Positions 4,615-64,000 of a stretch of DNA of 64,000 bases are shown here, one piece after another. How positions within the stretch are numbered: position 1 is the first letter of the stretch; every line of letters starts with the position of its first letter. A program made the translations under genes and the position numbers. The notes under the pieces are model-generated. The model had not been told where the DNA came from and made no database searches. It saw only the letters and a list, made by a program, of their open reading frames with translations. The DNA is from Azospirillaceae bacterium. Lineage in GTDB: Bacteria > Pseudomonadota > Alphaproteobacteria > Azospirillales > Azospirillaceae. Location of the stretch: NCBI GenBank assembly GCA_031291675.1, contig JARLIO010000005.1, positions 62,001-126,000 of the forward strand. The letters are read 5' to 3'.

Positions 4615-4618
4615 CGCC

Positions 4619-12877: not shown

Positions 12878-13632
12878 CCGTCGATGCGACGGCAGGCGAT
12901 GCGACGGCAGGCGATGCGGTGGGCAAGGACGCCGTGCTCTGCCGCGGCTTGACCAAATCCTATTCGACGCCGAGCGGCAGCGTGCCGGCCCTGCGCGGCG
13001 TCGATCTCGACGTCCGCGCGCGCGAGATCCTATTCCTGGTCGGGCCGTCCGGATGCGGCAAGACGACGCTGATCTCCCTGATCGCCGGCGTGTTGCGCCG
13101 CGATTCCGGCCAATGCCTGATCTTCGGGACGGATCTCGACACGCTCGTTCCCCGTGAGGCGACGTCATTCCGGCGGGATAATATCGGCTTCGTCTTCCAG
13201 TCCTACAATCTCATCCCCTCGCTCAGCGTCCAGGACAATGTGATGATTCCGCTCCTTTTGAAGAATGTTCCTCAACCGGAGGCAGCGAAGGAGGCGGCAA
13301 AGGCGCTGGACGCGGTCGGGCTCGGCGTGCACCGCGACAAGATGCCTTCGCAGCTGTCAGGAGGCCAGCAGCAGCGGGTCGCGGTCGCGCGTGCCATCGT
13401 GCATGCCCCGCGGCTCATGGTGTGCGACGAGCCGACCAGCGCCCTCGACCACACAACGGGAAAGGACGTGATGAAGCTGCTTCGCAGTCTGGCGCGCGAC
13501 CGGGGGACGACGTTGATCGTGGTCACCCATGACCAGCGGATTTTCGATTTCGCCGACCGTATCGCGCAGATGGACGACGGCCGGATCATCGGCGTGGGGA
13601 CGGCCTCGGCTGCGCAGGGGCTCGACGCATGA
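12874..13632 (+). CDS. ABC exporter ATPase (DevA/MacB-N-like)
   Basis: A 252-residue nucleotide-binding subunit. The Walker A is GPSGCGKTT (about 58-66), the Q-loop lies in FVFQSYNLIPSL, the signature is LSGGQQQR, the Walker B is LMVCDEPTSALD and the H-loop is VVTHDQ. It belongs to the LolD/MacB/DevA class, which pairs with FtsX-like permeases. The first ~20 residues (DATAGDATAGDA) come from a tandem 15-bp repeat and form an unusual low-complexity lead-in before the normal domain start near residue 21. Its start overlaps the permease stop and its stop overlaps the adaptor start, both as ATGA. Confidence 0.9.
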   Translation: MTVDATAGDATAGDAVGKDAVLCRGLTKSYSTPSGSVPALRGVDLDVRAREILFLVGPSGCGKTTLISLIAGVLRRDSGQCLIFGTDLDTLVPREATSFRRDNIGFVFQSYNLIPSLSVQDNVMIPLLLKNVPQPEAAKEAAKALDAVGLGVHRDKMPSQLSGGQQQRVAVARAIVHAPRLMVCDEPTSALDHTTGKDVMKLLRSLARDRGTTLIVVTHDQRIFDFADRIAQMDDGRIIGVGTASAAQGLDA

Positions 13633-43184: not shown

Positions 43185-44203
43185 CGATGATACGAACGCT
43201 GCGGAGCTTTCACGGCGCGACCCAGGTCGCCGTCCTGCTCGCGGTTCTGCTGGCCAACTGGCTGGTCTTTCCCGGGTTCTTTGCGATCCGCCTTCAGGAC
43301 GGCCGGTTGTTCGGCAGTCTGATCGACGTGCTCAACCGCGGTTCGCCGGTCGCACTGCTGACGCTGGGCATGACCCTGGTGATTGCGACCGGCGGCATCG
43401 ACCTGTCGGTCGGCGCGGTGATGGCGATCGCCGGCGCCGTGGCCGCGACCCTGACCCGTGATGGCCAGGGTCTGCCGGTGGTGCTGGCGGTATCGCTGGC
43501 CGCGGGCCTGGCCTGCGGGCTGTGGAACGGACTGCTGGTTGCCGTGCTGCGGATCCAGCCGATCGTCGCGACGCTGATCCTGATGGTCGCCGGTCGCGGG
43601 ATCGCCCAGCTGATTACCGAGGGTCAGATCGTCACCTTCGTCAATCCACAGCTGTCGGCGCTGGGCAGCGGCGAGTTCCTGACGGTTCCGATGCCGGTGG
43701 TGATCGCGCTTGGCATGCTGGTGCTGTCGTTGCTGCTGACCCGCGCCACCGCGCTGGGGATGTTGATCGAATCGGTCGGCATCAACCGCGTGGCCTCGGC
43801 GTTCGCCGGCATCAACACCGGGGCGGTCATCGTCGCGGTCTATGTCTGGTGCGGGCTCTGTTCCGCGGTGGCCGGCGTCATCGTTGCCGCCGACATCCGT
43901 GGCGCCGACGCCAACAATGCCGGCCTGTGGCTGGAAATGGACGCGATTCTGGCCGTTGTCGTGGGTGGCACCTCGCTGCTGGGCGGTCGTTTTGGCCTGG
44001 CGCCGGCGATCGTCGGCGCCTTCATCATCCAGGGCATGAACACCGGAATTCTGCTGAGTGGTTTCAAGCCGGAATTCAACCTGATCGTCAAGGCCACCGT
44101 GATCATGATTGTTCTGCTGGTGCAGTCGCCCGCCTGGAGGACTTTTTCGCTGCCGTCGCTGCCGTCGCTGCAGCGCAAACATCCGGGGAGGACCGTGCCA
44201 TGA
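43181..44203 (+). CDS. ytfT: Sugar ABC transporter permease, YtfT-like
   Basis: A 340-residue membrane protein with about nine hydrophobic segments. The family signature GMTLVIATGGIDLSVGAVMAIAG lies near residue 65-85, and GINRVASAFAGIN and VVGGTSLLGGRFG sit in the C-terminal half. Paired with the next gene it forms a heterodimeric channel, the known organisation for YtfT/YjfF. The start overlaps the ATPase stop and the stop overlaps the next start (ATGA both times). Confidence 0.92.
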   Translation: MTMIRTLRSFHGATQVAVLLAVLLANWLVFPGFFAIRLQDGRLFGSLIDVLNRGSPVALLTLGMTLVIATGGIDLSVGAVMAIAGAVAATLTRDGQGLPVVLAVSLAAGLACGLWNGLLVAVLRIQPIVATLILMVAGRGIAQLITEGQIVTFVNPQLSALGSGEFLTVPMPVVIALGMLVLSLLLTRATALGMLIESVGINRVASAFAGINTGAVIVAVYVWCGLCSAVAGVIVAADIRGADANNAGLWLEMDAILAVVVGGTSLLGGRFGLAPAIVGAFIIQGMNTGILLSGFKPEFNLIVKATVIMIVLLVQSPAWRTFSLPSLPSLQRKHPGRTVP

Positions 44204-45231
44204 ACCAGCGTTTCCTGCCGCTGATCGCGACGATTATCGTCTTCGTCGTCGGGTACCTCTTCTGTGCCCTGCAATTCAATCATTTCGCGACGTTGCGGGT
44301 CGTGATGAATTTGCTGACCGACAATGCCTTCATCGGCATCATCGCGGTCGGCATGACCTTCGTCATCCTGTCGGGCGGCATTGATCTCTCGGTCGGTTCG
44401 ATCATCGCCTTCACCACGGTCGTGCTGGCGGTCCTGATCGGCAGCTGGCACGTCAATCCCTGGGTGGCGTTCGCCATGGTTCTGGTGCTGGGCGGCGCGT
44501 TTGGCGCCGGCATGGGCGCGATCATCCATTTCTTCCAGTTGCCGCCCTTCATTGTCACCCTGTCGGGCATGTTTCTGGTCCGCGGCCTGGCCTTTGTCAT
44601 CAGCACCGAATCGATTCCGATCAACCATCCCCTGTTTGCCCAGCTCAATGACATCGTCGTGGTCGTGCCCGGCGGCAGCCATCTGACCTTGATCGCGATG
44701 GTGATGCTGGTGGTTCTGGGGATCGGCACGGTGCTGGCCCACCTGACCCGATTTGGCACCAATGTGTTCGCCCTGGGTGGCAACCGGGTTTCGGCCCAGT
44801 TGATGGGCGTGCCGATCGCCCGGACCACGATCAGCATCTATGCGCTGTCGAGCCTGCTGGCCGCGTTATCGGGGATCGTGTTTTCGCTCTACACCGCGGC
44901 GGGCTATGCCCTGGCCGGCACCGGGGTGGAACTGGACACCATCGCCGCGGTGGTCATCGGCGGAACCCTGTTGAGCGGCGGCGCCGGCCATATGCTGGGA
45001 TCGTTCCTCGGCGTCATGATCGAGGGGCTGATCCAGACCTATATCTCGTTCGACGGGACGCTCAGCAGTTGGTGGACCAAGATCGCGATCGGCGTGCTGC
45101 TGTTCATGTTTATTGGCCTGCAACGCCTGCTGACGGTGGTGTGGGCCGCCAAGGCGAGCGCGCCCAGCCGCCCGGCCTCTGGCAAAGCCGCGCCTGCCGA
45201 TGCGGCGGGGCCCCGGCCTCAGCGGGCTTGA
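44200..45231 (+). CDS. yjfF: Sugar ABC transporter permease, YjfF-like
   Basis: A 343-residue membrane protein of the same permease family. It has GMTFVILSGGIDLSVGSIIAF near residue 50, GGNRVSAQLMGVPI, and AVVIGGTLLSGGAGHMLGS. It completes the YtfQRT-YjfF-type system. A hydrophilic Ala/Pro tail extends past the last helix. The start at 44200 overlaps the YtfT stop. A strong hairpin follows at 45248, consistent with the end of the operon. Confidence 0.92.
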   Translation: MNQRFLPLIATIIVFVVGYLFCALQFNHFATLRVVMNLLTDNAFIGIIAVGMTFVILSGGIDLSVGSIIAFTTVVLAVLIGSWHVNPWVAFAMVLVLGGAFGAGMGAIIHFFQLPPFIVTLSGMFLVRGLAFVISTESIPINHPLFAQLNDIVVVVPGGSHLTLIAMVMLVVLGIGTVLAHLTRFGTNVFALGGNRVSAQLMGVPIARTTISIYALSSLLAALSGIVFSLYTAAGYALAGTGVELDTIAAVVIGGTLLSGGAGHMLGSFLGVMIEGLIQTYISFDGTLSSWWTKIAIGVLLFMFIGLQRLLTVVWAAKASAPSRPASGKAAPADAAGPRPQRA

Positions 45232-50699: not shown

Positions 50700-52194
50700 C
50701 TTTATCAATACCACCGGATTCCGCTGGGGCGTAACCGTGGCCACGGTGGCCACGCTGGGCATCGCGCTGCTGTTCGTGTTCATCTACTGGCAATGTGCCG
50801 TGGTGATGATTGCCCCGATCGATGCGCTGATCAGTGCCGAGGCGGATTCGATCACCAGCGCCCCGGAACCGCTGCTGGAGGCGCTGGCCGAGCATGTCGC
50901 GCATGACCGGCGCCATCTCAAAGTGATGGGCCTGTTTGATGCCGCGGGCCAGCCGATCGCCGGCAATCTGGTCGCCCAGCCCCGGCCCTTTATCGCCGAC
51001 GGCCGCCTGCAGAGTATCGTCGCCTTCCGTCGCGGCGAGGAGGCCGGGGCGCCGCAATATGCCCGGGCCCTGGGGCGCCCGCTCGCCGATGGCACGATCC
51101 TGGTCGTGGGCCACAATATCGACGAATTCCTGGCGATGCGCGCCAGCGTCCGACGCGGCCTGCTGCTGGCATTGGCGCCGGCGATCCTGCTGAGCCTGGG
51201 CAGCGGTGCATTTCTGGGGTTGCGGGCGCAACAGCGGCTGACGCTGCTGCGCACCACGGCGGTACGGATCGCGGCAGGGCAACTCGGTGAGCGCCTGCCG
51301 GTCCGGGCGCGCGGCGACGATCTCGACGCGCTGGCCCAGATCGTCAACCGGATGCTCGACGAGTTCGAACGTCTGGTCGAGGACATCAAGGGCGTTGGCG
51401 AAGACATCGCCCATGATCTGCGCACCCCCTTGACCTGGGCCCGGGCCCGGCTGGAGCGCGGTCGCGCCCATGCCACCAGCCTGGAGGCGATGAACGACGT
51501 CGTCGACCAGGCCCTGGGCGGCATCGACCAGGCGCTCAATGTCGCCGCGGCGCTGCTGCGGATCGCCGAGGTCGAGCATGGCCAGCGCCACGCCGCCTTC
51601 GGGCCGGTCGATCTCAGCGACATTGTCGGCGATGTTGGCGAGGTCTATCGGCCCCTGGCCGAAGACCGCGGCATCGACTTCGCCTGGCGCCTGTGCGGCA
51701 GCGACGCGGCGCCGTTGATGGTCCAGGGCGATCGCGACCTGCTGATCGAGGCGCTGGCCAATCTCGTCGACAATGCCGTCAAATTCGCGCCGCCCGGCGG
51801 CCATGTGGTGATCGAGCTGGGCAACACCGGCGCCGGGCCGCTGCTGCGGGTTTGCGACGACGGTCCCGGCATTTCCCCAGGGGATCGCGACCATGTGTTC
51901 CGCCGCTTCTTCCGCTCGGACAAGAGCCGCCACACCCAAGGCACCGGACTGGGGCTCAGCCTGGTCGCGGCGGTGGCCCGGCTGCATCAGTTCGGCCTGA
52001 CGATCGGCGACAATGAGGCGCTGGCCGCGCATCACGCCGGCGACGGCACCGAGCACCGAACGCCGGCCCGCGGCCCCGGTTGCGTCGTCGAGCTGACCTG
52101 TTGGCCCCAGGCCCAGGCCCGGATCAGCGTCGCCCCGTCGCCCCGGGATCCCGCCCCAAATCCCGTCCTGGCGATCACAGCCCCGGCTGATTGA
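50686..52194 (+). CDS. Sensor histidine kinase of the two-component system
   Basis: A 502-residue membrane kinase. The first helix (about 12-38) is followed by a periplasmic sensor (about 39-155), a second helix (about 158-185) and a HAMP linker. The H-box is EDIAHDLRTPLTWARARL, the N-box NLVDNAVKFAPP, with G1 CDDGPGI and G2 GTGLGLSLVAAVARLH. It phosphorylates the partner regulator. The GTG at 50686 inside the regulator's end is the likely start; an ATG at 50665 is possible. The C-terminus is extended by a low-complexity tail and overlaps the convergent gene 52175-53398 by 20 bases. Confidence 0.9.
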   Translation: MRRPDFINTTGFRWGVTVATVATLGIALLFVFIYWQCAVVMIAPIDALISAEADSITSAPEPLLEALAEHVAHDRRHLKVMGLFDAAGQPIAGNLVAQPRPFIADGRLQSIVAFRRGEEAGAPQYARALGRPLADGTILVVGHNIDEFLAMRASVRRGLLLALAPAILLSLGSGAFLGLRAQQRLTLLRTTAVRIAAGQLGERLPVRARGDDLDALAQIVNRMLDEFERLVEDIKGVGEDIAHDLRTPLTWARARLERGRAHATSLEAMNDVVDQALGGIDQALNVAAALLRIAEVEHGQRHAAFGPVDLSDIVGDVGEVYRPLAEDRGIDFAWRLCGSDAAPLMVQGDRDLLIEALANLVDNAVKFAPPGGHVVIELGNTGAGPLLRVCDDGPGISPGDRDHVFRRFFRSDKSRHTQGTGLGLSLVAAVARLHQFGLTIGDNEALAAHHAGDGTEHRTPARGPGCVVELTCWPQAQARISVAPSPRDPAPNPVLAITAPAD

Positions 52195-53398
52195 CCGGTG
52201 GCGCGGCGGCGGCGCGCGCGGCGCCTTCAATCGCGTGGCGCACCCAGTCGAGGCGCGCCTGCGGCACGAGGCCGTAGTTATAAAAATTGACGCCGTCGGC
52301 GCCACCGGCAACCGCGGCCTGGACCCGGGCGGCGACGGCGTCGCGGTCCTTCATCTCCGGATAGCCGAGGCGCAGGCCGGCGCCAAGATAGCGATCCGGG
52401 CCCAACGCCTTGCGGCTGGCGATCATCAGCGCACCGACCGTCTCCGGTTCCATGTTGTAGGCGCACAACACCGCGCCGTCGCACACCGTCCCGATCGCCG
52501 CGATGTCGCAGCCGTCGCGCCAGCCATCCTTCAGGTCGATGACATGGATCCGGCTGGCCGGATCGGCACGGTCCCGGATGTCGCGGACCAGGCTGGTGAC
52601 GGGCTCGAAGCGCCACAGGACATAATCCTGGACTTCGGGCCAGGGGCTGAACAAAGCGGGGCCGCCCGCCGGAAAATCGGGCCAGCGCGGTTGTGGCACC
52701 TCACGCTCCAGCGCCTCGGTCAGCCAGCGCCGCACCATCAGCCGGGCGCGCCCGCCATCGACGCCCGCCGCCGCGGCGCGGGCGAGGCAGGCCGGGCAGA
52801 AACACAGCGACAGCAGGAAATCGTCCTCGGCCGTCAGGCCGACGGCATCCTTTTCATGGTGGGCCTCATGGGCGAAACCCATGAAACCGGGGCTTTCCAG
52901 CTCGACGCTGTCCGGTTTGTAGCGGTGCGTCACATCCTCGACCATCGTGGTGACATAAGCCCGAACATCGGGGTGGGACGGGCAGAGATTATAGGGGTTG
53001 GGGTCGCCGAAGGCGTTGCGGGTGACAACCGCCGGGTGTTGCAGGCCAAGGCGGGTATTGTGCAGGCAGACCGTCCAGCACGACACCGCGAGGCCGCCGG
53101 CGTCGCGCTGGCGGATCAGGCTGGCGAGCACATCACCGCCTTCGCTGATCACATCGGCCAGCTTGGGCTGGATCTTCAGGTCCTGCCACCGCGCCGCGGT
53201 CGGCAGAAAATAGATCGTACCGTCCTCGGGAAAGAACACCTTGCGCTGCGGGCTGCGCGGTTGCAGGAAATGGCCGGCATGATAGGACGTCGCCATGCTG
53301 ATGCCATTGACGCCGGCCCGGGTCTGCAACTCCCGCAGCACGGCCGGGCAGCCCAGGTCCTGCAGATCCCAGGGATAGGTCCACATCGAATAGCGCAT
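52175..53398 (-). CDS. Conserved protein of unknown function in a D-aminoacylase operon
   Basis: A 407-residue cytoplasmic protein, probably TIM-barrel-like judging by regularly spaced strands (MATSYHAGHFL, AVSCWTVCLHN, VELESPGFMGFAHEAHHE, IHVIDLKDGW, AVLCAYNMEP, GADGVNFYNYGLV). A CFCPACLARA Cys motif suggests a metal or structural site. Histidines and acids in ELESPGFMGFAHEAHH could be catalytic. No named family is recognised. It overlaps the D-aminoacylase gene by one base (TAATG) and is the last gene of the transporter operon, so it should act on the same imported compound, possibly a sugar-linked one. Confidence 0.7.
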   Translation of the reverse strand: MRYSMWTYPWDLQDLGCPAVLRELQTRAGVNGISMATSYHAGHFLQPRSPQRKVFFPEDGTIYFLPTAARWQDLKIQPKLADVISEGGDVLASLIRQRDAGGLAVSCWTVCLHNTRLGLQHPAVVTRNAFGDPNPYNLCPSHPDVRAYVTTMVEDVTHRYKPDSVELESPGFMGFAHEAHHEKDAVGLTAEDDFLLSLCFCPACLARAAAAGVDGGRARLMVRRWLTEALEREVPQPRWPDFPAGGPALFSPWPEVQDYVLWRFEPVTSLVRDIRDRADPASRIHVIDLKDGWRDGCDIAAIGTVCDGAVLCAYNMEPETVGALMIASRKALGPDRYLGAGLRLGYPEMKDRDAVAARVQAAVAGGADGVNFYNYGLVPQARLDWVRHAIEGAARAAAAPPVNQPGL

Positions 53399-55002
53399 TA
53401 CGGATCTCCAAGGGGAAGAACGCGTCCGGGACGGCGATCGGTGACCTGGCCGTCACGGACCACGGCCTCGCCATTGACCCAGACATGGCTGACACCGCGG
53501 GCCAGGCGTGTCGGCGCGTCGAACGTCGCCTCATCGATGATCGTCGGGGCGAACAGGACCAGATCGGCGGCCAGCCCGACCCGGATCACGCCGCGGTCGA
53601 CAAGGCCAAAGCGCTGCGCGCTGGCCGAGGTCAGGCGCCGCACCGCGTCCTCGATCGGAAACCAGCCTTCGTCACGAACCAGGCGGCCGACGAATCGCGG
53701 GAAGCTGCCATAGCCGCGCGGGTGCGGCCGCGTCCCGGGGCGCGGCAATCCGTCAGAACCGCCAATATGCAGGCGATGACAGCAGGCGGCGCGGACATCG
53801 GCCACATCGAGTTGGAACAGCACGACCCCGGTCTGGCCGGCATCCTGCTCGACCAGCAACACCAGCAGATCGAACGCCGTGATGCCGAGCGATGCCGCGG
53901 CGGCGTCAAAGCGGCGGCCTTCGAGATGTTTCAGCCCGGCGGCTCCAATCGCCGAAAGCTGGACACTGTCCCAACCAATCAGAGAAATCTTCGAGGACTG
54001 ATGCGGGTCGCCGCTGCCCTCCTCGATCCAGCGCCGGATCGCCTCGCGTTGCGCCGGATCGCGCAGGCGGTCGCACAGCGCGTCATAGCCGCCGTCAAGC
54101 GCCGCGGGCGGCAGCAACTGCAACAGATAGCTGCTGCCGGCCAGATAGGGATACATGTCAAAGGTGACGTCGAGCCCGTCGCCGCGTGCCGCCTCGAGAC
54201 GGCTCAGCACCGTTGGCACCCGCCCCCAATAGGGCCGCCCCGCCGATTGCAGATGCGACAGCAGCCCCGCCGCGCCCGACTCCGCCAGAATCGCCAGAAA
54301 CTCATCGACCGCGGTCAACAGGCCGCCCTCATAGCTGCGCAAATGGGCGGTCAGCAGCTTGCCGTGATCGCGGACGGTCCGGGCCAGCGCCACCAGCTCA
54401 TCGGTATCGGCAAAGGCGCTCGGCGGATAGACCAGGCCGAGCGACAGGCCCGCCGCGCCCTGCCGAAGCTGGACCGCCAGCAGATCGCACATCGCGCGGC
54501 GCTCCGCGGTCGTCGCGGCACGGCCCTGATACCCCATCACCGCGAGGCGTAGCGGCCCATGGCCGACCAGCGACACCAGATTGAGCGCGGCGCCCTGCCC
54601 CTGCAACGCGGCGCGGTACCCCGCGAAATCGCTGAAAATCTCGGTCGGCGCGGTTTCGCCCAACAACGCACCGAAATGCTGGCGCAACAGATCACCCGAG
54701 CCGCCGCGGGTCGGATACAGCGAAAAGCTGCAATTGCCGACCACGACGGTGGTGACGCCCTGCAACAGCTTTTCGATCCGGGCTGGTTCGCGCAGCGTGA
54801 TCAGGTCGTCGTGGCAATGGGCATCAATAAAGCCCGGGGCCAGGAACCGGTCACCGGCCGGCACCAGCGTCGCCCCGCTTGGATCGAGACCGGGCTCAAT
54901 CGCGGCGATCCGCCCGTCGCGGATCCGCACATCGGCCCGGTACCAGGGCGCCCCGGTGCCATCGATGATCCGGGCATCCTGAACCAGCACGTCGCCGCTC
55001 AT
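53398..55002 (-). CDS. D-aminoacylase / N-acyl-D-amino-acid deacylase (amidohydrolase superfamily)
   Basis: A 534-residue zinc amidohydrolase. An N-terminal urease-type beta domain (DVLVQDARIIDGTGAPWY) precedes the barrel. Metal-site motifs are DAHCHDD (about 60), the NCSFS cysteine of D-aminoacylases (about 92), a LTAHLRSY histidine, and GSDG near residue 414 for the final aspartate. A returning beta domain (GVSHVWVNGEAVVRDGQ) ends it. The enzyme removes the acyl group from N-acyl-D-amino acids. Its operon partners are a ribose-type ABC transporter and, upstream, a D-threonine-aldolase-like enzyme. This is an unusual pairing with a sugar-type importer. Confidence 0.88.
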   Translation of the reverse strand: MSGDVLVQDARIIDGTGAPWYRADVRIRDGRIAAIEPGLDPSGATLVPAGDRFLAPGFIDAHCHDDLITLREPARIEKLLQGVTTVVVGNCSFSLYPTRGGSGDLLRQHFGALLGETAPTEIFSDFAGYRAALQGQGAALNLVSLVGHGPLRLAVMGYQGRAATTAERRAMCDLLAVQLRQGAAGLSLGLVYPPSAFADTDELVALARTVRDHGKLLTAHLRSYEGGLLTAVDEFLAILAESGAAGLLSHLQSAGRPYWGRVPTVLSRLEAARGDGLDVTFDMYPYLAGSSYLLQLLPPAALDGGYDALCDRLRDPAQREAIRRWIEEGSGDPHQSSKISLIGWDSVQLSAIGAAGLKHLEGRRFDAAAASLGITAFDLLVLLVEQDAGQTGVVLFQLDVADVRAACCHRLHIGGSDGLPRPGTRPHPRGYGSFPRFVGRLVRDEGWFPIEDAVRRLTSASAQRFGLVDRGVIRVGLAADLVLFAPTIIDEATFDAPTRLARGVSHVWVNGEAVVRDGQVTDRRPGRVLPLGDP

Positions 55003-55060: not shown

Positions 55061-56044
55061 TCACCGGCGCGCCCGCTCGCGGCCCGACAACAACAGCAGG
55101 CCGAGGATCAAGCCGCCAAACAGGATGTTGCGCCAACCCGGTGAGGCATTGACCACGGTGATCAGCGCGGTGACGGTCACCAGCAGAATGGCGCCCGGGA
55201 TCGTTCCGGCATAGCTGCCGCGGCCGCCCAGCACCGAGGTCCCGCCCAGCACCACCGCGGCGATCGAGGCCAGCAGATAGGGATCACCGATACCGACATA
55301 GCCCTGGCCGTTCATGCCCAGCACCACGATCCCGGCGAGGCCCGCGGTGAAGCCGCTGACGGCATAGATCAGCATCGTCGTGCCGGGCACGCTGACCCCG
55401 GACAGCAGGGTCGCCAACGGGTTGGCGCCCAACGCGAAAATCCGGGCGCCGAGCGGGGTGGCATGCAGCAGGGCCAGCGTCGCGCCCGAGACCACCAGCC
55501 AGAGCAGAATTCCAGCGGGAATGCCGCCCAGCCGGCCACTGCCCAGCCACTCGACGACCGGATTGTGCGCCGAAACCGCGGTGCCGCCGGCCACCAGGAT
55601 CAGCGCCCCCTGCAGAAATGTCGCCATCGCCAGCGTCATGATCATCGGATGGACGCGCAGCGCGCTGACGCCAACGCCATTGACCAAACCGATCGCCGTG
55701 GCCACGGCCAGCGTGGCCAGCAACCCGACCAATCCGGTCGCATCACCCGCGCCCGACAACAAGGGCAGGCTGATCGCGCTGACGGTGACGATGGCGCCGA
55801 CCGACAGATCGATGCCCCCGGCGATCACCACCAGGGTCTGCCCCGCCGCGACCAGGCCGATCACGGCGGCAAGCTCCAGCAGATAGCGCAGATGCCCGAA
55901 GCTGGCGAAACCACGGCTGCTCAGACCGGCAACGATCCAGACCAGGATGACGATCACCAGCATCTGCAAGGCCCGGTTCTGCAAAACCGTCCGCAACCGC
56001 CCCGGCACCGCGGCACTGGTTTTCCCGGCGTTCATGGCGTTCAT
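55061..56044 (-). CDS. Ribose-type ABC transporter permease (RbsC-like), second subunit, transporter 3
   Basis: A 327-residue membrane protein with the family signatures GQTLVVIAGGIDLSVGAIVTV near residue 75 and VVLGGTSVLGGRGSYAGT near 265. A short hydrophilic N-terminus precedes about nine helices. It overlaps the other permease gene as ATGA and likely forms a heterodimer with it. The D-aminoacylase gene follows 58 bases later. Confidence 0.9.
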   Translation of the reverse strand: MNAMNAGKTSAAVPGRLRTVLQNRALQMLVIVILVWIVAGLSSRGFASFGHLRYLLELAAVIGLVAAGQTLVVIAGGIDLSVGAIVTVSAISLPLLSGAGDATGLVGLLATLAVATAIGLVNGVGVSALRVHPMIMTLAMATFLQGALILVAGGTAVSAHNPVVEWLGSGRLGGIPAGILLWLVVSGATLALLHATPLGARIFALGANPLATLLSGVSVPGTTMLIYAVSGFTAGLAGIVVLGMNGQGYVGIGDPYLLASIAAVVLGGTSVLGGRGSYAGTIPGAILLVTVTALITVVNASPGWRNILFGGLILGLLLLSGRERARR

Positions 56045-57015
56045 GACCGCCTCCCGCGGATCCGCAGCTGGGGCAGCGCCACGGCCGCGATAATGATCAG
56101 GCCCTGGGCGACATATTGCGCGACCGGCGGCAGGCCCAGAAAAAACATGACATTGATCATCAGGCTGAGCAGCAGGCTGCCGGCGAGGGCGCCCCGCATC
56201 GTACCGCTTCCGCCCAGAAAACCGACGCCCCCCAGCACCGCGGCGGCGATCGAATTAAGGGTGAAGCTGTCCCCGATCACGGGATCGCCGGAACCGGTCT
56301 GCGCCGCGACGAACAACCCGGCCGCGGTCGACAGCAACCCGCTCAGCGCATAGGCCGCGATCCGTACCCGATCGACCGCGATGCCGGCATTGTGGGCCGC
56401 GACCGGGTTTTCCCCGGCGGCGTAAAGGCTGAGGCCGAGCGGCGTCGCCAGATAGAGCTTCCACAAGCCGACAATGACGACCAGAATCCCAAACGCGATC
56501 GGCTGATCCCCCGCCAGCAGGTCCGAGAACCCGTCCGGGATCGCACCACCCGGCCGCGGCAGGATCAGCAGGGCGGTCCCGCCGATCAGGAACGACGCCG
56601 CCAGGGTCACGACGATCGCCGGCAGGCGCAGCCGGACCACGATCAACCCGGTTGCCGCGCCGATGGCGAGACCGGCGGCGAGCACCAGCGCGAGCCCGCC
56701 GCCAACGCCGGCCGGTCCCGACATCGTCACTGCGGCGATCACGGCGCCCAGACTGACCATGGCGCCCAGCGAAAGGCTGATTCCGCCCGCCAGCATCACC
56801 AGGGCCTGAGCCATGCCGGCCAGCGCCAACGGAAACCAGTTCTGGGTCAGGCGGGCGAAGCCGTCGCGGCTCAGCAGCCCGGGAAACAGGACGGCATCGA
56901 TGACCAGAAACGCCAGAACCACGGCATAAAGACCATAAAGGCCGCGATTGCGCCGGGCCTGGACCGGTCCGTAGAGCGGCGGCACGCCGCGCGGCAAGGG
57001 TTCGGCGGCGGTCAT
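56041..57015 (-). CDS. Ribose-type ABC transporter permease (RbsC-like), first subunit, transporter 3
   Basis: A 324-residue membrane protein. The family loop reads AQALVMLAGGISLSLGAMVSL, with serine where aspartate is usual in IDLSVG, a mild deviation. GVGFLGGSGTMRGALAGSLL is present toward the C-terminus. The ATG at 57015 overlaps the ATPase stop (ATGA), and the stop overlaps the next permease start in the same way. With the second permease it forms the channel of the N-acyl-D-amino-acid-associated transporter. Confidence 0.9.
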   Translation of the reverse strand: MTAAEPLPRGVPPLYGPVQARRNRGLYGLYAVVLAFLVIDAVLFPGLLSRDGFARLTQNWFPLALAGMAQALVMLAGGISLSLGAMVSLGAVIAAVTMSGPAGVGGGLALVLAAGLAIGAATGLIVVRLRLPAIVVTLAASFLIGGTALLILPRPGGAIPDGFSDLLAGDQPIAFGILVVIVGLWKLYLATPLGLSLYAAGENPVAAHNAGIAVDRVRIAAYALSGLLSTAAGLFVAAQTGSGDPVIGDSFTLNSIAAAVLGGVGFLGGSGTMRGALAGSLLLSLMINVMFFLGLPPVAQYVAQGLIIIAAVALPQLRIRGRRS

Positions 57016-58553
57016 GGCGCCCCTCCGGTTCCCGCGGGGGCCGTCGCAGCCCCCATCGCCGCGGCGACGATCGCCGCCTCGCTGAGATCGCGGCGCTCGA
57101 TCCGGGCGACGATCCGCCCTTCGCGCAGGATCGCGACACGGTCGCACAGATTGACCAGTTCCGGGGTGTCGGAGCTGAGCAGGATCACCGCCTGGCCGGC
57201 ATCCGCCAGTTGCCGCAGCATCCGATAAATCTCACGCTTGGTTTCAACGTCGACGCCGCGGGTCGGGTCGTTGAGCAGCAGGATCCGGGGATCATGCGGC
57301 AGCCATTTGGCCAGCGCCACTTTCTGCTGGTTGCCGCCGGACAGCGCCTGGGCCGGACGCATCAGGTCGCCCTTGATGCCAAGCCGTGCCGCCAGCACAG
57401 CGGTGGCGCCCTGTTCCTGGCGCCGCCGGCGCAGGCTCAACCCATGCTGGCGCGCAAACGCCGGCAGCATCAGATTGGTCGCGATCGAATGGATCAGATG
57501 CAGGCCCTCGCGCCGCCGGTCCGCCGGCACATAGGCGATGCCGAGGCGGTTGGCCCGGGTCACCCGGCCCGGCAGGCTTGTGGCGCCATTGACCCGCACC
57601 GCGGTTGCGGTCGCGGGGATCGCGCCGTACAGGCCGAGCAGCACATCCTCCTGCCCGTGCCCGACCAGCCCGCCCAGGCCCAGCACCTCGCCGGGCTGCA
57701 CGGTCAAGGCGATGTCGCGGGTCATCCCGGCGGCAAAGCCGGTGACCGACAGCACCGGCGGCGCCGCGGGCGGCGCGGTCCAGGTCGGGAACAGGTCGCC
57801 GGGATCGCGCCCCACCATCAGGCGAACCAGACCGGCGGCGTCGATCCCGGCCAGCGGCCGGTCGGCGGTGACGACGCCATCCTTCAGCACCGTGACATGG
57901 TCGCACAGCGCCATGATTTCGTTGAGACGATGCGAAATATAGAGGATCGCGACACCCTGCGCGCGCAGCCGGCCCAGCAGATCGGTCAGGATCCCCGTTT
58001 CGCGGGCTGACAGCGACGAGGTCGGTTCGTCCAGGATCAGAATCCGCGGATTGCGGAACAGCGCCTTGGCGATTTCGACCATCTGGCGCCGGCCCAGCGA
58101 CAGGGCCCCGACCGGCAACGACAAGGGCTCGTCAAGCCCGACAAGGCCACAGACCTCGCGGGCGCGCCCGGCCAGGGTGCGATAGTCGATCAGGCCGAAG
58201 CGGCGCGGAAAGGCGCCCAGGCCAATATTCTCGCCGATCGACAGCGTGGTCGTCAGGCTGAGTTCCTGCTGGACGACGGCGATCCCGGCCTTGCGGGCGT
58301 CGGACGGGGTCAAATGCCCCCGCGGCGCGCCATTGACGACGATCCGGCCGGAATCGGGCCGAAGCCCGCCCGACAGGATGTTGATCAAGGTCGATTTCCC
58401 GGCACCATTCTCACCCAGCAGGGCGTGAATGCGCCCGGGCCGCAAGGCGATCGAAACACCGCGCAACACCGGGTTGCCGAAAAACCCCCGGGTAATGTCC
58501 TGCGCGGCGATCAGCGGCGCCACCGCGACGGGATCGACGTCGTCCGATGTCAT
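57012..58553 (-). CDS. Ribose-type ABC transporter ATPase (RbsA-like, double NBD), transporter 3
   Basis: A 513-residue ATPase with two domains. Domain one has GENGAGKST (about 44-52), a diverged signature LSLGRRQM and ILILDEPTSSL. Domain two has GLVGHGQED in place of Walker A, LSGGNQQK and ILLLNDPTRGVD. The last has Asn-Asp where Asp-Glu is expected at the Walker B end, so the second site is likely inactive, as is common in this family. Start and stop overlap the neighbouring genes by four bases. Confidence 0.92.
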   Translation of the reverse strand: MTSDDVDPVAVAPLIAAQDITRGFFGNPVLRGVSIALRPGRIHALLGENGAGKSTLINILSGGLRPDSGRIVVNGAPRGHLTPSDARKAGIAVVQQELSLTTTLSIGENIGLGAFPRRFGLIDYRTLAGRAREVCGLVGLDEPLSLPVGALSLGRRQMVEIAKALFRNPRILILDEPTSSLSARETGILTDLLGRLRAQGVAILYISHRLNEIMALCDHVTVLKDGVVTADRPLAGIDAAGLVRLMVGRDPGDLFPTWTAPPAAPPVLSVTGFAAGMTRDIALTVQPGEVLGLGGLVGHGQEDVLLGLYGAIPATATAVRVNGATSLPGRVTRANRLGIAYVPADRRREGLHLIHSIATNLMLPAFARQHGLSLRRRRQEQGATAVLAARLGIKGDLMRPAQALSGGNQQKVALAKWLPHDPRILLLNDPTRGVDVETKREIYRMLRQLADAGQAVILLSSDTPELVNLCDRVAILREGRIVARIERRDLSEAAIVAAAMGAATAPAGTGGAP

Positions 58554-59602
58554 TTCGCAGCCAACAGCGTATCGAACAGCGTCTGGTCGTAGGGCGAATA
58601 GATGAAGCCATCCGCCGGGAACGCGTCGGCATGCGCCAGATATTGATCGAGATTGCTGTTGTCGATCACCGGCAGCGGCACTTTGACGAAAGCGGGCACG
58701 TCCTTGCCTTGAAGGGCCGTGAGCGCGGCATCAAGCGCCAGCGCCCCGAGCCAGTTCGGCTGCATCGTGGCCCAACCCTTCATGCCGTCCTTTTTCCACA
58801 GCTCGAGGAATTGACGGGCATTCTCGCCGGTGGTCGGGACGACCGGATGGCCCTGTTTTTCAAAGGCCAGCACCGCGCCGGTCGCCAACGGCCCGGCCAG
58901 GGCCAGAACGCCATCGATCTGGGCGTTGTTGAACAGCAGATTGGTCACCGCCTCCTGCGCCGGGGCGACATTGTAGGCGGTATTGCTTTCGGCCAGGATC
59001 TTGACATCGGGATGAGCCTGCAAAACCGGCTCGGCGCCCTTGCGCCGGTCATCGCTGACCGAGACCCCGGCCGGCCCGTTCAGGATGATGATGTTGCCCT
59101 TGCCACCGATCGCGTCGATCAGCCATTGCGCCGCGCCGGCACCCCAGGCGGCGGAATCGGTGTTGATCCGCGTGGTCAATTGATCGGTATCGACCAGGCT
59201 GTCGAAATTGACCACGGCGATGCCCTTGGCGCAGGCGCTGGCAATGACCCGGTTGAGCGCGGTCGACGACCCGGCCTCGATCAGGATCGCATCGACATTG
59301 GCGTCGATCATCGACTGGATCTGCTGGATCTGGGTGCTGGCGTTACCCTGGGCGTCGGTGACCACCAGTTTTGACACCAGGCCGCGCTTCTTGTCGGCGT
59401 CGAACTCGGCCTGGATCGTGGCCTGGGTCTGCTTCATCCAGGTCGGCACCGAATAGATATTGGCCCAGCCGATGGTGAAGGGGGCCTTGCGGTCGCCCTT
59501 GATGCATTTGGCGGCGGCCAGGGCCGGGGCGGTCGCACCAAGGGCCAGTGCCAGGCCCAGGCAAACGGGAACGGCGGCGGCGCGCAATGATGATCGGATC
59601 AT
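58550..59602 (-). CDS. Ribose-type periplasmic substrate-binding protein (RbsB-like), transporter 3
   Basis: A 350-residue secreted protein with signal peptide LGLALALGATAPALAAAK and the Peripla_BP_4 fold (FTIGWANIYSVPTWMKQT, DAILIEAGSSTALN, GIAVVNFDSLVDTDQL). Its sequence is typical of the group that binds sugars and related polar molecules, but the operon contains a D-aminoacylase, so the ligand may be an N-acylated or amino-sugar-like compound. GGAG ten bases upstream of the ATG at 59602. Its promoter region holds the paired ATGTCC operator sites at 59721-59774. Confidence 0.9.
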   Translation of the reverse strand: MIRSSLRAAAVPVCLGLALALGATAPALAAAKCIKGDRKAPFTIGWANIYSVPTWMKQTQATIQAEFDADKKRGLVSKLVVTDAQGNASTQIQQIQSMIDANVDAILIEAGSSTALNRVIASACAKGIAVVNFDSLVDTDQLTTRINTDSAAWGAGAAQWLIDAIGGKGNIIILNGPAGVSVSDDRRKGAEPVLQAHPDVKILAESNTAYNVAPAQEAVTNLLFNNAQIDGVLALAGPLATGAVLAFEKQGHPVVPTTGENARQFLELWKKDGMKGWATMQPNWLGALALDAALTALQGKDVPAFVKVPLPVIDNSNLDQYLAHADAFPADGFIYSPYDQTLFDTLLAAK

Positions 59603-59720: not shown

Positions 59721-59774
59721 GCTTTCGATGTCCAAAATACCGGACATAAGCTCTGTATATCGGACATCGAAAGC
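59721..59774 (-). promoter_or_regulatory. Nested operators (ATGTCC/GGACAT) before the transporter-3 operon
   Basis: A 13-bp perfect inverted repeat, GCTTTCGATGTCC (59721-59733) and GGACATCGAAAGC (59762-59774), frames the region. Inside lies a second dyad ATGTCC-AAAATACC-GGACAT (59728-59747), and the right arm adds a third half-site. The same ATGTCC-nnnATA pattern occurs upstream of the amino-acid transporter at 61029. Being about 120 bases before the binding-protein gene, it is the likely operator for the operon; AT-rich TATATC/TATTTT within it may be the -10. Confidence 0.65.
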
Positions 59775-59844
59775 GTAGAGAAGGCTTAGGCATTGTGCAA
59801 GCGTAAAAACGGCCTACTATTTGGGCATTGCGCGGCGAAAATGA

Positions 59845-60900
59845 TCAGCGCACTTGTCCGCGCGCCGCCACCGGGGCGACACCCTCGACCTGGGCGCCAC
59901 GCACCAGCGTGACCGTGTCAACCATGTTGGAGACGACGCAGGCATGGTTGGGCACGATCCGGACCCGGTCCCCGACCGCGAGGCCGATGTCGCCGTCGCT
60001 GACCAGGCGGCCATGCTCCTCCGACAACTGGTCGATGCGCAGGTCGGGGCGGTCCAGGACATGGCCGTGGCCGGTCAGGCCCAGAAGGTCGGAGGTCAGA
60101 ACCTTGGTGCCGGCGTCGATGATGGCCCGATTGGCATCGGGCACCGAGACCACGGTGGCCAGCACGGTCAGGGCGCAATCGGCCCATTGGCAGACGCCGC
60201 GGGCGACCAGGGAGCGATCATTGTAGATATAGGTGCCACTGCGATATTCGTTGACGATGGGGGCGTCATGGGCGTGCCACATGTCGGGGGCGCCACCGCT
60301 GGTGATGATTTCGACGGGCAACCCGGCGGCGGCGCACAGGGTCTTGGCCCGGCTCATCCAGTCCTGCACGCCGGCAACGCCGCCGGCAGGCGGATAGGTC
60401 ATCAGGCCGCCGAAACGCAGGCCGGGCGCGGCCGCGATCACCGCGGCCAGGTCGCGGGCCGCCTCGGGCGTGGCCACGCCACAGCGATGGGCCCCGGTGT
60501 CGCATTCGACCAGAACCGTCAGCGGCGACGACGCGTCGGCGAACTGCCGCGACAGACCCTCGACCACGGTGCGGCTGTCGGCGACGACCGACAGCGCCAC
60601 CCGGTCGGCCAGCGCCCGCAACCGCGCCAGCTTGGCCGCGCCAACGATGTTGTAGGTCAACAGGACGCTGGCGATGTCGCGGCCGGCGACCATCGCCTCA
60701 GCCTCCGAGACCTTCTGGCAGGTGATGCCGACCGCGCCGGCCGCGACCTGGCGGCGCGCCAAGAACGGCAGCTTGTGGGTCTTGATGTGCGGACGGCAGG
60801 CGATGCCGTGCGCGTCACAATAATGTTGGAAGCGGTCGATATTGGCCTCGGCAATCGCGAGATCGACGAGGACCGCGGGGGTATCGATGTCAGGGAACAT
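59845..60900 (-). CDS. PLP-dependent D-threonine aldolase/D-serine dehydratase-like enzyme (DSD1 family)
   Basis: A 351-residue fold-type III PLP enzyme, N-terminal alanine-racemase-like barrel then beta domain. The PLP lysine is in RPHIKTHKLP (about residue 40). A C-terminal NHACVVSNM with histidine and cysteine matches the metal site of D-threonine aldolase and D-serine dehydratase. It acts on D-amino acids such as D-threonine or D-serine, cleaving or dehydrating them. GGAG seven bases before the ATG at 60900. It neighbours a D-aminoacylase operon and a divergent amino-acid transporter, which suggests a D-amino-acid utilisation locus. Confidence 0.88.
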   Translation of the reverse strand: MFPDIDTPAVLVDLAIAEANIDRFQHYCDAHGIACRPHIKTHKLPFLARRQVAAGAVGITCQKVSEAEAMVAGRDIASVLLTYNIVGAAKLARLRALADRVALSVVADSRTVVEGLSRQFADASSPLTVLVECDTGAHRCGVATPEAARDLAAVIAAAPGLRFGGLMTYPPAGGVAGVQDWMSRAKTLCAAAGLPVEIITSGGAPDMWHAHDAPIVNEYRSGTYIYNDRSLVARGVCQWADCALTVLATVVSVPDANRAIIDAGTKVLTSDLLGLTGHGHVLDRPDLRIDQLSEEHGRLVSDGDIGLAVGDRVRIVPNHACVVSNMVDTVTLVRGAQVEGVAPVAARGQVR

Positions 60901-61028
60901 GGCACTTCTCCGGTAACGCCGGCGGGGGGATCGGGTTCGCCAAGAATACCGCGAAACCGTGATCGCATCGCGGCTTGACAGCGGTCTGGCGTGCCGATCA
61001 TAGTAGCGCAATCTGCTCCTTTGTAAAC

Positions 61029-61048
61029 ATGTCCGGGATAGCAGACAA
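61029..61048 (+). promoter_or_regulatory. Operator-like ATGTCC site before the amino-acid transporter
   Basis: ATGTCC-GGGATAGC-AGACAA lies 17-36 bases before the ATG at 61065. It follows the spacing of the dyad at 59728-59747 (ATGTCC-AAAATACC-GGACAT) with the conserved ATA in the spacer and one weakened arm. TTTGTAAACAT just before it is AT-rich and may be part of the promoter. It is a candidate shared operator for both transporter units. Confidence 0.5.
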
Positions 61049-61064: not shown

Positions 61065-61937
61065 ATGACAGCCCCGTCGTTCTTGTCCCCCCGCCTGCGG
61101 ATGGCGCTCACGATCGCCGCCGCCCTTGGTTCCCTGGTCGCGACCAGCGTCGGCGCCACGGCCCAGGAAACTAAAAGCAAACTTGATGCCGTTCTCGCCC
61201 GCGGCACGCTGATCGTTGGAACCGGCAGCACCAATCCGCCGTGGCATTTCAAAGGCGCCAACGACGAGTTGCAGGGCTTTGACATTGATATCGCCCGGAT
61301 CGTCGCCAAAGGTTTGTTCGACGATGCCGGCAAGGTCCAGTTTGTCCAGCAGTCCTCGGACGCCCGCATTCCCAACCTCACGACCGACAAGGTCGACATG
61401 ACCTGTCAGTTCATGACGGTGACGGCCAGCCGGGCCCAGCAGGTCGCCTTCACGATCCCCTATTACCGCGAGGGTGTCGGCCTGTTGTTGCCGATCAAGG
61501 GAAAATACAAGAATTACGCCGATCTGAAGGCCGCCGGCGATGCGATCACCGTCGCCGTGCTGCAAAATGTCTATGCCGAAGAGATGGTCCATGCGGCACT
61601 GCCCCAGGCCAAGGTCGACCAGTATGACAGCGTCGATCTGATGTACCAGGCGGTCAATTCCGGGCGGGCCGAGGCGGCAGCGACCGATCAGTCCTCGATC
61701 AACTGGCTGATCGTGCAGACCCCCGGGCGCTATGTCTCGGCGGGCTATTCCTGGGATCCGCAGACTTATGCCTGTGCGGTGAAGCGGGGTGACCAGGAAT
61801 GGCTCAACTTTGTCAATACCGCCCTGCATGAGGCCATGACCGGGGTCGAATTCGACACCTATGCGGCATCGTTCAAGAAATGGTTCGGCGTTGAGCTGGC
61901 GCCGCCGGCCACGGGATTCCCGGTCGAATTCAAGTAG
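61065..61937 (+). CDS. Polar amino-acid ABC transporter periplasmic binding protein (SBP_bac_3)
   Basis: A 290-residue secreted protein with signal peptide ALTIAAALGSLVATSVGATA and the SBP_bac_3 pattern (LDAVLARGTLIVGTGSTNPPWHF, LQGFDIDIARIVAKGL, DMTCQFMTVTASRAQQVAFTIPYY, TVAVLQNV). It captures a polar or D-amino acid for the two permeases and ATPase encoded next. GGAG upstream of the ATG at 61065. It is divergent from the D-threonine-aldolase-like gene. Confidence 0.92.
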   Translation: MTAPSFLSPRLRMALTIAAALGSLVATSVGATAQETKSKLDAVLARGTLIVGTGSTNPPWHFKGANDELQGFDIDIARIVAKGLFDDAGKVQFVQQSSDARIPNLTTDKVDMTCQFMTVTASRAQQVAFTIPYYREGVGLLLPIKGKYKNYADLKAAGDAITVAVLQNVYAEEMVHAALPQAKVDQYDSVDLMYQAVNSGRAEAAATDQSSINWLIVQTPGRYVSAGYSWDPQTYACAVKRGDQEWLNFVNTALHEAMTGVEFDTYAASFKKWFGVELAPPATGFPVEFK

Positions 61938-61968: not shown

Positions 61969-62631
61969 ATGACCTATCATTTTGATTTCGCCGTTGTCTG
62001 GCGTCATGAGAATTTGTTGCTGTCCGGTCTTGGGCTGGGCCTGGTGTTGGCCCTGGTGTCGATCCTGATCGGCTGCATCATCGGGTTGGCGGCGGCTTTC
62101 GGTGTTCTGTCCCGGCATCGCATCTTCCGGATCATCGCCACGGTCTATGTCACGACGATCCGGAACACCCCGATCCTCGTCCTGATTTTACTGACCTATT
62201 TCGCGCTGCCCGAGCTCGGGCTGCGCCTGGGCAAGATCCAGTCCTTCATCATCACGCTGTCGGTCTATGCCGGCGCCTATCTGACCGAGGTGTTCCGCGC
62301 CGGCCTGGTCGCGATCCCGCGCGGTCTGCGCGAAGCCGGTCTGGCGATCGGCCTGACCGAGGGCCAGATCCGCCGCTCGGTCATCATTCCGGTGATGATC
62401 CGCAACGTCCTGCCGTCGCTGGGCAATAATTTTATTTCCCTGTTCAAGGATACCTCGCTGGCCGCCGCGATCGCGGTCCCCGAGCTGACATTTTACGCCC
62501 GCAAGATCAATGTCGAGAGTTTCCGTGTCATCGAAACCTGGATGGTGGCCAGTCTGATGTATGTCGTCGCCTGCCTGATCATTTCCACGGCTCTGCGCTT
62601 TGTCGAGCGCCGGCTCGCGATCATTCGTTGA
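61969..62631 (+). CDS. Polar amino-acid ABC transporter permease (HisM/HisQ-like), first subunit
   Basis: A 220-residue membrane protein with about five helices and the family EAA loop (VFRAGLVAIPRGLREAGLAIGLTEGQ, about 105-132) that contacts the ATPase. The opening LLSGLGLGLVLALVSILIGCIIGLAAAFG is a typical first helix pair. GGGAG eight bases upstream of the ATG. It lies 31 bases after the binding protein and 12 bases before the second permease. Confidence 0.92.
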   Translation: MTYHFDFAVVWRHENLLLSGLGLGLVLALVSILIGCIIGLAAAFGVLSRHRIFRIIATVYVTTIRNTPILVLILLTYFALPELGLRLGKIQSFIITLSVYAGAYLTEVFRAGLVAIPRGLREAGLAIGLTEGQIRRSVIIPVMIRNVLPSLGNNFISLFKDTSLAAAIAVPELTFYARKINVESFRVIETWMVASLMYVVACLIISTALRFVERRLAIIR

Positions 62632-62643: not shown

Positions 62644-63303
62644 ATGACGGATTACCCCTTTCTGATGGAACTTTGGGCGGCGCGCGGGGCGATCCTGAAC
62701 GGCCTCGGCCTGACCGTCGCTGTTTCGCTGCTGGCGATCGTGCTGGGTTCGATCCTCGGCCTGTTCGTCGGCATCGGCCTGACCTATGGCGGCGGGATGG
62801 TGCGCTTCGCCCTGCGCTGTTACACCGAATTGATCCGTGGCACCCCGGTCTTCGTGCTGATCCTGGCCTGTTTTTATATCCTGCCGGTGACCGGCATCCA
62901 GACCACGGCGTTTCAGGCCGGGCTGATCGGCCTGCTGCTGTTCTGCGGCTCGCATGTCGGGGAGATCGTGCGCGGTGCCTTGCAGGCGATTCCGCGCGGC
63001 CAGAGCGAGGCCGGCAAAGCCATCGGGCTGAGCTTCAGCCAGAACTTCGTCTATGTGCTGATGCCTCAGGCCCTGCGTCAGATCCTGCCGACCTGGGTCA
63101 ATGCGGCAACCGAGATCGTCAAGGCGTCGACATTGCTTTCGGTGATCGGCGTCACCGAATTGCTGTTGGCAACGCAACAGGTGATTTCCCGCACCTTTAT
63201 TGGCATGCCGTTCTATCTCTTCGCCGGCGCCATCTATTTCGCGATTAATTTCGCGATCGAGCAGCTCGGTCGCTACGCCGAGAGAAAGGTTTCACTGCCA
63301 TGA
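62644..63303 (+). CDS. Polar amino-acid ABC transporter permease (HisM/HisQ-like), second subunit
   Basis: A 219-residue membrane protein of the same family. It has the EAA loop [26 protein letters not shown] and a first helix [23 protein letters not shown]. The stretch [18 protein letters not shown] is the conserved R-G-T-P loop. It forms a heterodimer with the preceding subunit. Its stop overlaps the ATPase start as ATGA. Confidence 0.92.
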
Positions 63304-64000
63304 CCCACCCGGAGGCAAGCGTGGCGACGACGGCCGCAGCGCCCGCGCTGTTGCGGATCCAGGACCTGCACAAGGCGTTTCAGACCGTCGAAGTGCTCAA
63401 GGGCGTCGACGTCACCCTGGCCCGTGGCGATGTCGTCACCATCATCGGGTCGAGCGGCTCGGGCAAGACCACGTTGTTGCGCTGCGTCAACCTGCTGGAG
63501 GAATTCCAGCGGGGCCGGATCGAGATCGACGGCCAGGCGATCGGCTATCGCGAGCAGGGCGGCCGACGCGTCCCCTGCACGGGCGCCGAGGTCGCGCGCC
63601 ATCGCGCTTTGACCGGGATGGCGTTTCAGCAGTTCAACCTGTTCCCGCACCTGACGGCCCTACGCAATGTCACGCTGGGCCTGATCAAGGTCAGGAAGCT
63701 GGCCCGCGACGAGGCCGTCGCGATCGCCGAAAAATGGCTGGACCGCGTCGGCATGCTGGAACGGCGCAACCACTATCCCGGCCAGCTTTCCGGGGGTCAG
63801 CAGCAGCGCGTCGCCATTGCCCGGGCCGTCGCGATGACGCCGCGCCTGATGCTGTTTGACGAAGTCACCTCGGCGCTGGATCCCGAACTGGTCAACGAGG
63901 TGCTGAGCGTGGTCCAGGGACTGGCGCAGGACGGCATGACCATGCTGCTGGTGACCCATGAAATGCGCTTCGCCTATGAAGTATCGGACCGCATCATTTT
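63300..64000 (+). CDS. Polar amino-acid ABC transporter ATPase (HisP/GlnQ-like), 3' end off the window
   Basis: The frame from the ATG at 63300 runs to the right edge (about 233 residues visible; family length about 250). Walker A is GSSGSGKTT (about 50-58), the Q-loop [11 protein letters not shown], the signature LSGGQQQR, Walker [14 protein letters not shown] with Val for the usual Pro (typical of this group), and the H-loop THEM. It overlaps the second permease gene. Only the last ~20 residues are missing. Confidence 0.92.

Follow-up and report, generated by a model that had tools for sequence, protein, structure and literature searches.

Local repressors that act at palindromic operators are well known. 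Within the IclR family of regulators, KdgR and PcaR/PcaU/PobR have other targets than those considered here. The closest described systems are summarized below.

In the beta-hydroxyaspartate cycle of Paracoccus denitrificans, the IclR-family protein BhcR regulates a local cluster that includes a PLP enzyme of the D-threonine aldolase family (BhcC). BhcR is reported to be an activator, and a putative palindrome lies upstream of the -35 region (PMC11323563). The oxidised-chitin (ong) cluster of Pseudoalteromonas prydzensis encodes a D-aminoacylase-like deacetylase, a fold-type III PLP-dependent deaminase and RidA, all of them part of the pathway, in one repressed cluster. Its regulator, OngR, belongs to the MurR/RpiR family, and its importer is an SSS symporter (PMC9537276, PMC12017989). 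The N-acetyl-D-hexosamine oxidase from Ralstonia solanacearum (EC 1.1.3.29) oxidises C1 of GlcNAc to the lactone; the report leaves the role of the enzyme in the organism open (PMC9299179). For regulons of the IclR family as such, the part of PMC5343134 that could be consulted treats one, that of HmgR.

The locus described here was found in a stretch of 64,000 nucleotides, which is referred to as the window, and extends a short distance beyond its end. BhcR and BhcC are the best NCBIfam matches of its IclR-family protein and its D-threonine-aldolase-like protein, but the equivalog cut-offs are not reached (71.5 vs 350 bits and 198.5 vs 690 bits, respectively). KdgR and PcaR/PcaU/PobR match the regulator with similar strength (69.8 and 70.2 bits), again below their cut-offs (275 and 284.75). 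Unlike the BhcR system, this one links two importers, and its doubled operator lies downstream of the -10 box. In contrast to the ong cluster, the regulator belongs to the IclR family, the importers are ABC transporters, and the deacylase lacks a Lys that is conserved in OngB. The explanation that we favor, and consider quite probable as a whole from sequence comparison, is that shared operators place both importers under one IclR-family regulator, likely a repressor. The proposed regulon would serve the catabolism of oxidised amino sugars or else of D-amino acids. It is undescribed as far as a partial literature library shows: no description of the regulator or of the operator was found among the titles and abstracts listed.

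Genes and operators of the window

A ribose-type (CUT2) importer is encoded on the minus strand by genes for a solute-binding protein (58550-59602; Pfam PF13407; 64-73% identity to its relatives), an ATPase (57012-58553) and two permeases (56041-57015 and 55061-56044, both PF02653). The same operon also holds genes for a D-aminoacylase-like amidohydrolase (DAA; 53398-55002), which has SHLQ in place of SHHK, and for a GHL10-like uncharacterised protein of 407 aa (GHL; 52175-53398), which scores 27.6 bits against PF02638, under the cut-off of 27.9. Homologues of the GHL10-like protein (51-63% identity) are encoded beside regulon genes in Rhizobium, Aminobacter, Ciceribacter and genome G336. The polar-amino-acid operon is on the plus strand. 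It starts with a gene for a solute-binding protein (SBP3; 61065-61937; PF00497), followed by two amino-acid ABC permeases (61969-62631 and 62644-63303, both PF00528) and an ATPase (63300-64000) that continues past the end of the window. Beyond it, on the same contig, are the genes for RidA and then for the IclR-family regulator. A gene for a D-threonine-aldolase / D-serine-dehydratase-like PLP enzyme (D-TA; 59845-60900, minus strand; PF14031 and PF01168; PDB 7dib, 4v15, 6qkb) stands between the two transporter units, divergent from the polar-amino-acid operon. A sequence-only reading of the window had proposed a motif shared by two divergent transporter units. Gene calls and domains agree that the motif precedes the ribose-type and the polar-amino-acid operon, respectively, but the D-TA gene lies between them, and the divergence at the second site is that of D-TA and the polar-amino-acid operon. 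Elsewhere in the window (43181-45231), two consecutive genes read as ribose-type ABC permeases by eye from their translations and probably belong to a further sugar importer.

The first operator of the ribose-type operon, ATGTCCAAAATACCGGACAT (59728-59747), is a 20-bp palindrome with exact arms (ATGTCC-N8-GGACAT). The operator of the polar-amino-acid operon, ATGTCCGGGATAGCAGACAA (61029-61048; ATGTCC-N8-AGACAA), is situated in the divergent region between the D-TA gene and that operon. Both sequences are present letter for letter where they had been placed, and the shared palindrome was correctly recognized. A tandem copy 20 bp away, the half-degenerate AAGCTCTGTATATCGGACAT (59748-59767), had been missed, however, so that the motif represents a single half of a double operator. 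An inverted repeat (59721-59774) surrounds both copies, its 20-nt arms (59721-59740 and 59755-59774) being 90% complementary. Upstream of the polar-amino-acid site, at a distance of 20 bp, a second copy is present in degenerate form (61009-61028), with CAATC kept; several relatives have CAATCCGGTATT..GGAC at this place. No strand is assigned to any of these sites.

A matrix was built from 17 sites in promoters of other species, with the window left out. Applied to the window, it ranks 59728-59747 first (score 29.2), 61029-61048 second (17.8) and 59748-59767 third (12.1). With a matrix of main sites only, the degenerate copy at 61009-61028 scores -4.2. When the window was dinucleotide-shuffled 300 times, the best score reached at least 29.2 in none and at least 17.8 in two of the shuffles, and the second-best score never reached 17.8. 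The genome scan that had been suggested for the exact pattern ATGTCC-N8-GGACAT was carried out and returned one copy in 5.87 Mb, which is also the only one in the window. With up to three mismatches, there are 40 matches in the window versus 24.9 +/- 4.4 in shuffles; taken alone, this count is weak evidence, the pattern being too loose to decide. Among the 42 genome positions within three mismatches, 61029-61048 is only fourth by the 20-bp matrix, and a 40-bp operator model did not recover it in the window's genome at E <= 10, so that the case for the polar-amino-acid site rests on its place. The comparison with other species provides the strong evidence; judged from it, the motif is real and almost certainly functions as an operator.

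Reach of the regulon and candidate substrates

Three types of locus were distinguished. In type I (Chelatococcus, Sinorhizobium, Shinella), a D-TA gene stands beside a gene series in the order SBP3-permease-permease-ATPase-RidA-IclR; some other loci have no adjacent D-TA gene. In type II (Rhizobium; Bauldia, L047), the IclR gene is divergent from a ribose-type operon. The window combines the two units, with one regulator. In type III, the IclR gene and the operators are divergent from the operon of an oligopeptide-type importer (SBP5), which includes a DAA orthologue (57-62% identity to the DAA of the window) and D-TA. Carriers of type III are Azospirillum brasilense (L126) and genomes G011, G355 and G432; RidA was seen in all of these except G011. 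In Rhizobium, the type II operon codes instead for an L-fucono-lactonase-like amidohydrolase (106 bits vs a cut-off of 400) and a DoeB-like deacetylase (also under its NCBIfam cut-off), along with RidA and an enzyme resembling D-serine dehydratase, and the GHL gene has its own tandem operator. Locus L071 has no site before the IclR gene; its site is downstream, before a RidA-GHL pair, and an operator also precedes the RidA-GHL pair of the G336 locus. At L007, beyond the end of the window (2650-4617), a 2,4-didehydro-3-deoxy-L-rhamnonate-hydrolase-like protein (424.5 bits vs a cut-off of 500) is encoded 3' of the IclR gene, and an aldose 1-epimerase is encoded on the opposite strand, also 3' of that gene; together, they are possibly involved in sugar-acid metabolism.

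By its gene content, the regulon appears to comprise not only importers but also RidA, a deacylase-like enzyme and a PLP enzyme that resembles D-TA, which corrects the initial picture of transporter units alone. A deacetylase-like enzyme, a fold-III PLP enzyme and RidA are found beside one regulator at the window's locus with L007, and at L098, L099 and L126; the ong pathway has the same combination of enzymes (PMC9537276).

For a scan of genomes G355 and G432 with the operator model (limit E <= 1), 150 of 220 first-look candidates were scored in G355 and 150 of 224 in G432. Among the candidates scored, each genome has three distinct model loci, and all six are in the regulon set. In G355, these are the IclR/SBP5/DAA/RidA/D-TA locus, the gene for a flavoprotein resembling N-acetylhexosamine (HexNAc) oxidases and a lactonase gene. 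In G432, they are the IclR/SBP5/DAA/RidA/D-TA locus, a lactonase gene and an SBP3 operon, the binding protein of which is 65% identical to SBP3 of the window. The lactonase gene of G432 adjoins a flavoprotein gene (86% identical to that of G355), which has a tandem operator pair as well when the 20-bp matrix is used. The G355 flavoprotein has a TAT signal above the NCBIfam cut-off, and its closest solved relative (348 bits) is PDB 7zzk, which bears the name of the N-acetyl-D-hexosamine oxidase. Flavoprotein and lactonase genes, each with a tandem operator pair, are located at L097 (6652-10140) and L123 (4540-7919), in two genomes of one genus. The oxidase-like protein has no match at E <= 1e-5 in the window's own genome, so that this organism might depend on acids made by others. 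Among 72,556 plasmid records, 9 have homologues (actinobacteria and one cyanobacterium), and no further regulon was found there.

Of 311 first-look candidates in the window's genome, 150 were scored with the 40-bp model; among these, only the ribose-type pair has a low E-value (0.0016). The next model locus, C2:8280 (E 0.87), was rejected; it falls within the coding sequence of a solute-binding protein. Further high-scoring single sites of the 20-bp matrix are on contigs C43, C57, C86, C88 and C27. Across 385 genomes of the class, its own included, model matches at E <= 0.05 occur in 16, compared with about 19 expected by chance (385 x 0.05). Single matches therefore mean little, and only loci with neighbor evidence were used. 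L100 in G122 was set aside: its two similar palindromes (8595-8639) are 25 bp apart, not 20, there are no regulon genes in 18 kb, and it perhaps belongs to another regulator. L101 in G404, a single site with no regulon genes, was also set aside. Five model loci in G011, G003, G418 and G336 fit no explained regulon role, and G346 has no model match at E <= 1. In Ciceribacter thiooxidans (L125), the DAA and GHL genes are side by side (12001-14784), with no operator in 25.6 kb; one strong model match is present elsewhere on this plasmid, at 367440.

Oxidised amino sugars are the likeliest substrates because the operator also stands before the HexNAc-oxidase-like and lactonase genes in two relatives. 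N-acyl aldonic amino sugars (oxidised N-acetylhexosamines) would first be taken up, and the imported acid would then be deacetylated and deaminated to a 2-keto-3-deoxy acid. RidA would clear the reactive imine, and the 2-keto-3-deoxy acid or its precursor would act as inducer. We consider the prospects of this assignment, including its two reactions and the inducer, to be about even.

With operator and regulator unchanged, the regulon may instead serve D-amino acids or their N-acyl derivatives, such as those from peptidoglycan or peptides, which is a serious although somewhat doubtful possibility. The enzymes do resemble D-aminoacylase and D-threonine aldolase or D-serine dehydratase, the best PDB match of DAA is N-acyl-D-glutamate deacylase (3gip), which comes before PpOngB, and importers of the polar-amino-acid and oligopeptide type would be fitting. 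Moreover, OngC is reported to deaminate D-serine and D-threonine too (PMC9537276). D-amino acids would, however, leave unexplained why HexNAc-oxidase-like and lactonase genes are under the operator in G355 and G432, and likewise the sugar-type CUT2 importer and the Rhizobium amidohydrolase that resembles L-fucono-lactonase (at 106 bits, with a cut-off of 400).

The active site of DAA speaks against D-amino acids, and it also counts against the favored explanation. Its metal ligands Cys (GNC), His (AHLRS) and His (SHLQ) align with those of 1m7j and 3gip, where Cys, His and His are likewise found. Lys254 of PpOngB holds the alpha-carboxylate and is reported to be strictly conserved (PMC12017989). 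From its place two residues after His252, Lys254 would be the K of SHHK. The protein from the window and all three orthologues examined (L073, L098, L099) have Gln at this position. Since Gln replaces the carboxylate-binding Lys of D-aminoacylases and OngB, the substrate of DAA may differ from theirs, and DAA probably forms a distinct subfamily with these orthologues, to which it is 57-62% identical.

Returning to oxidised amino sugars, it is tempting to extend the proposal to a complete pathway for oxidised N-acetylhexosamines, yet undescribed in alphaproteobacteria, although we advance this scheme with some reserve. An exported flavin oxidase and a lactonase would generate N-acetylhexosaminic acid outside the cytoplasm, and one of three interchangeable ABC importers (polar-amino-acid, ribose-type or oligopeptide class) would take it up. 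The new D-aminoacylase-like subfamily would deacetylate it, and the D-TA-like enzyme with RidA would deaminate the product to the 2-keto-3-deoxy acid. A single IclR repressor would control all parts through the doubled 20-bp operator. The L052 operon is presumably Smb21135-Smb21138 of Sinorhizobium meliloti. This transporter has been tentatively tied to D-galactosamine (PMC4961836).

Sign of regulation and candidate regulator

A weak promoter-like element (TTGCAC-N17-TACGCT, 3/6 per hexamer; 59772-59800, minus strand) may be located directly upstream of the operator pair of the ribose-type operon. The corresponding promoters of four of seven relatives have TTGCGA-N16-TAAGAT at the same distance from the pair. 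The polar-amino-acid operon has a sigma-70-like promoter (TTGACA-N18-CATAGT; 60975-61004, plus strand), and TTGAC is found 50-55 bases upstream of the main operator in 15/15 SBP3 promoters, including that of the window. The operators thus occupy the stretch immediately 3' of the -10 box, where the transcript would start. For this reason, repression that is relieved by a ligand is likely. The sign cannot be deduced from the family, because BhcR, the best-scoring named relative, is reported to activate the bhc genes in vivo, and both modes are cited for the IclR family (PMC11323563). By analogy, the regulator may be an activator or have a dual function, but we consider this unlikely: the putative BhcR site is upstream of the bhcA -35 region, according to the same text, whereas the operators of the window type are downstream of the -35 and -10 boxes, as is evident from the constant place of TTGAC in the SBP3 promoters.

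The candidate for the repressor is encoded at G000:C9:126724-127518; the window ends at C9:126000, which places the gene 724 bases past its edge. The protein is assigned to the IclR family by both domains, HTH_IclR (PF09339, 45 bits, cut-off 22) and IclR_C (PF01614, 66.1 bits, cut-off 24). We predict from comparison with relatives that the two motifs are operators of this one local regulator, and we hold this to be very probable. The sequence-only reading had suspected that one unseen regulator ties both operons together, and the comparison supports this suspicion. An IclR orthologue is present in 20 of the 22 relatives' loci examined; 18 of these 22 had been found by searching for the regulator itself, and among the four found via the ribose-type binding protein, IclR is adjacent in two. 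The protein would recognise the 20-bp palindrome ATGTCC-nnTATAnn-GGACAT, which normally occurs twice, exactly 20 bp apart. The doubled operator would be bound as by a pair of dimers; the 20-bp spacing is observed, and from it we infer a tetramer.

It is improbable that the operators belong to another, distant regulator and that the IclR gene is a mere neighbor. L054 and L056 carry the operator without an IclR gene in the 21 kb fetched, as would be expected for a distant regulator. However, the plasmid of L056 bears an IclR orthologue at a second operator locus. This circular plasmid of 1,501,701 bases from Sinorhizobium sp. CCBAU 05631 has only two loci that match the 40-bp model at E <= 0.5. 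One is the ribose-type operon L056 itself (E = 2e-5), a training locus. The other, an operon of type I that includes the IclR gene (E = 1.4e-8), was itself absent from the training loci, although relatives of it were among them. By the shorter arc of the circle, 0.57 Mb separates the two operons, which, as they are the sole operator loci found, speaks for action in trans. A distant regulator is also hard to reconcile with the agreement between operator and recognition helix in all 28 homologues considered, none of which had been used for training and 26 of which come from a single genus. In these 26 (41-46% identity, helix PRST-YE-VN), which belong to a genus of the window's own family, the motif is best-scoring beside the gene in every case, while it is absent beside the gene in both homologues with a different recognition helix. 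In a tree of 30 chosen IclR proteins, the protein of the window groups with those of types I and II (92/97), apart from type III, and has no resolved placement within the type I/II group.

To gather the loci of relatives, the regulator was used as query against plasmids and genomes alike, and the ribose-type binding protein against plasmids; many of the loci are closely related, so that the counts do not represent independent events. The 20-bp palindrome of the window, in most cases with a second copy exactly 20 bp away, is found at polar-amino-acid promoters of Sinorhizobium, Chelatococcus and Shinella, and it is also found at ribose-type promoters of Rhizobium, Aminobacter and Bauldia. Relatives that have the same operons but lack the motif would have spoken against the suspected common regulator. 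The consensus derived from the window beats shuffles (fraction <= 0.05) in 7/7 ribose-type and 11/14 SBP3 promoters of relatives, and in the other three (L061, L069, L070), which fail the shuffle test, the SBP3 promoter still has the highest matrix score anywhere in the locus (16.8-18 kb). A narrower consensus (TGTCCG-NTATN-CGGACA) performed poorly on the relatives' upstream regions and was discarded. When the main-site matrix was applied to 25 sites (2 from the window, 23 from relatives), its top non-overlapping match lay at an upstream distance of exactly 20 bp in 24, L069 being the exception; L024 even has three operator copies, 20 bp apart.

Because the training sites had first been picked by their likeness to the window consensus, a blind palindrome search was added as a check. 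It covered all 6-mer palindromes with 0-20 spacer bases in 19 upstream regions of relatives, with the window left out. The best eight palindromes, each present in 10-13 of 19 regions, all represent, in different registers, the motif or its doubling at 20 bp, among them CCAATA-N0 (13/19), TGTCCA-N6 (12/19) and ATGTCC-N8 (11/19). One other palindrome, ATCGAC-N15, also occurs in 10/19 regions. On shuffled regions, the best palindrome reached 4-5 of 19 in 10 runs. Chance likeness of two short inverted repeats, which the 40 loose matches in the window might suggest, is therefore rejected as next to impossible, given the first and second matrix ranks of the two sites, the doubling in 24/25 sites, the 300 shuffles and this blind search.

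Biological meaning

In several alphaproteobacterial genera, including plant symbionts, one operator links importers of three ABC classes with a deacylase-like enzyme that has an altered active site, a PLP enzyme, RidA, an oxidase-like flavoprotein and a lactonase. Most of these proteins carry generic annotations, and such vague annotations are here turned into one testable pathway. If the proposal is true, N-acetylhexosamine oxidases would gain a physiological role.
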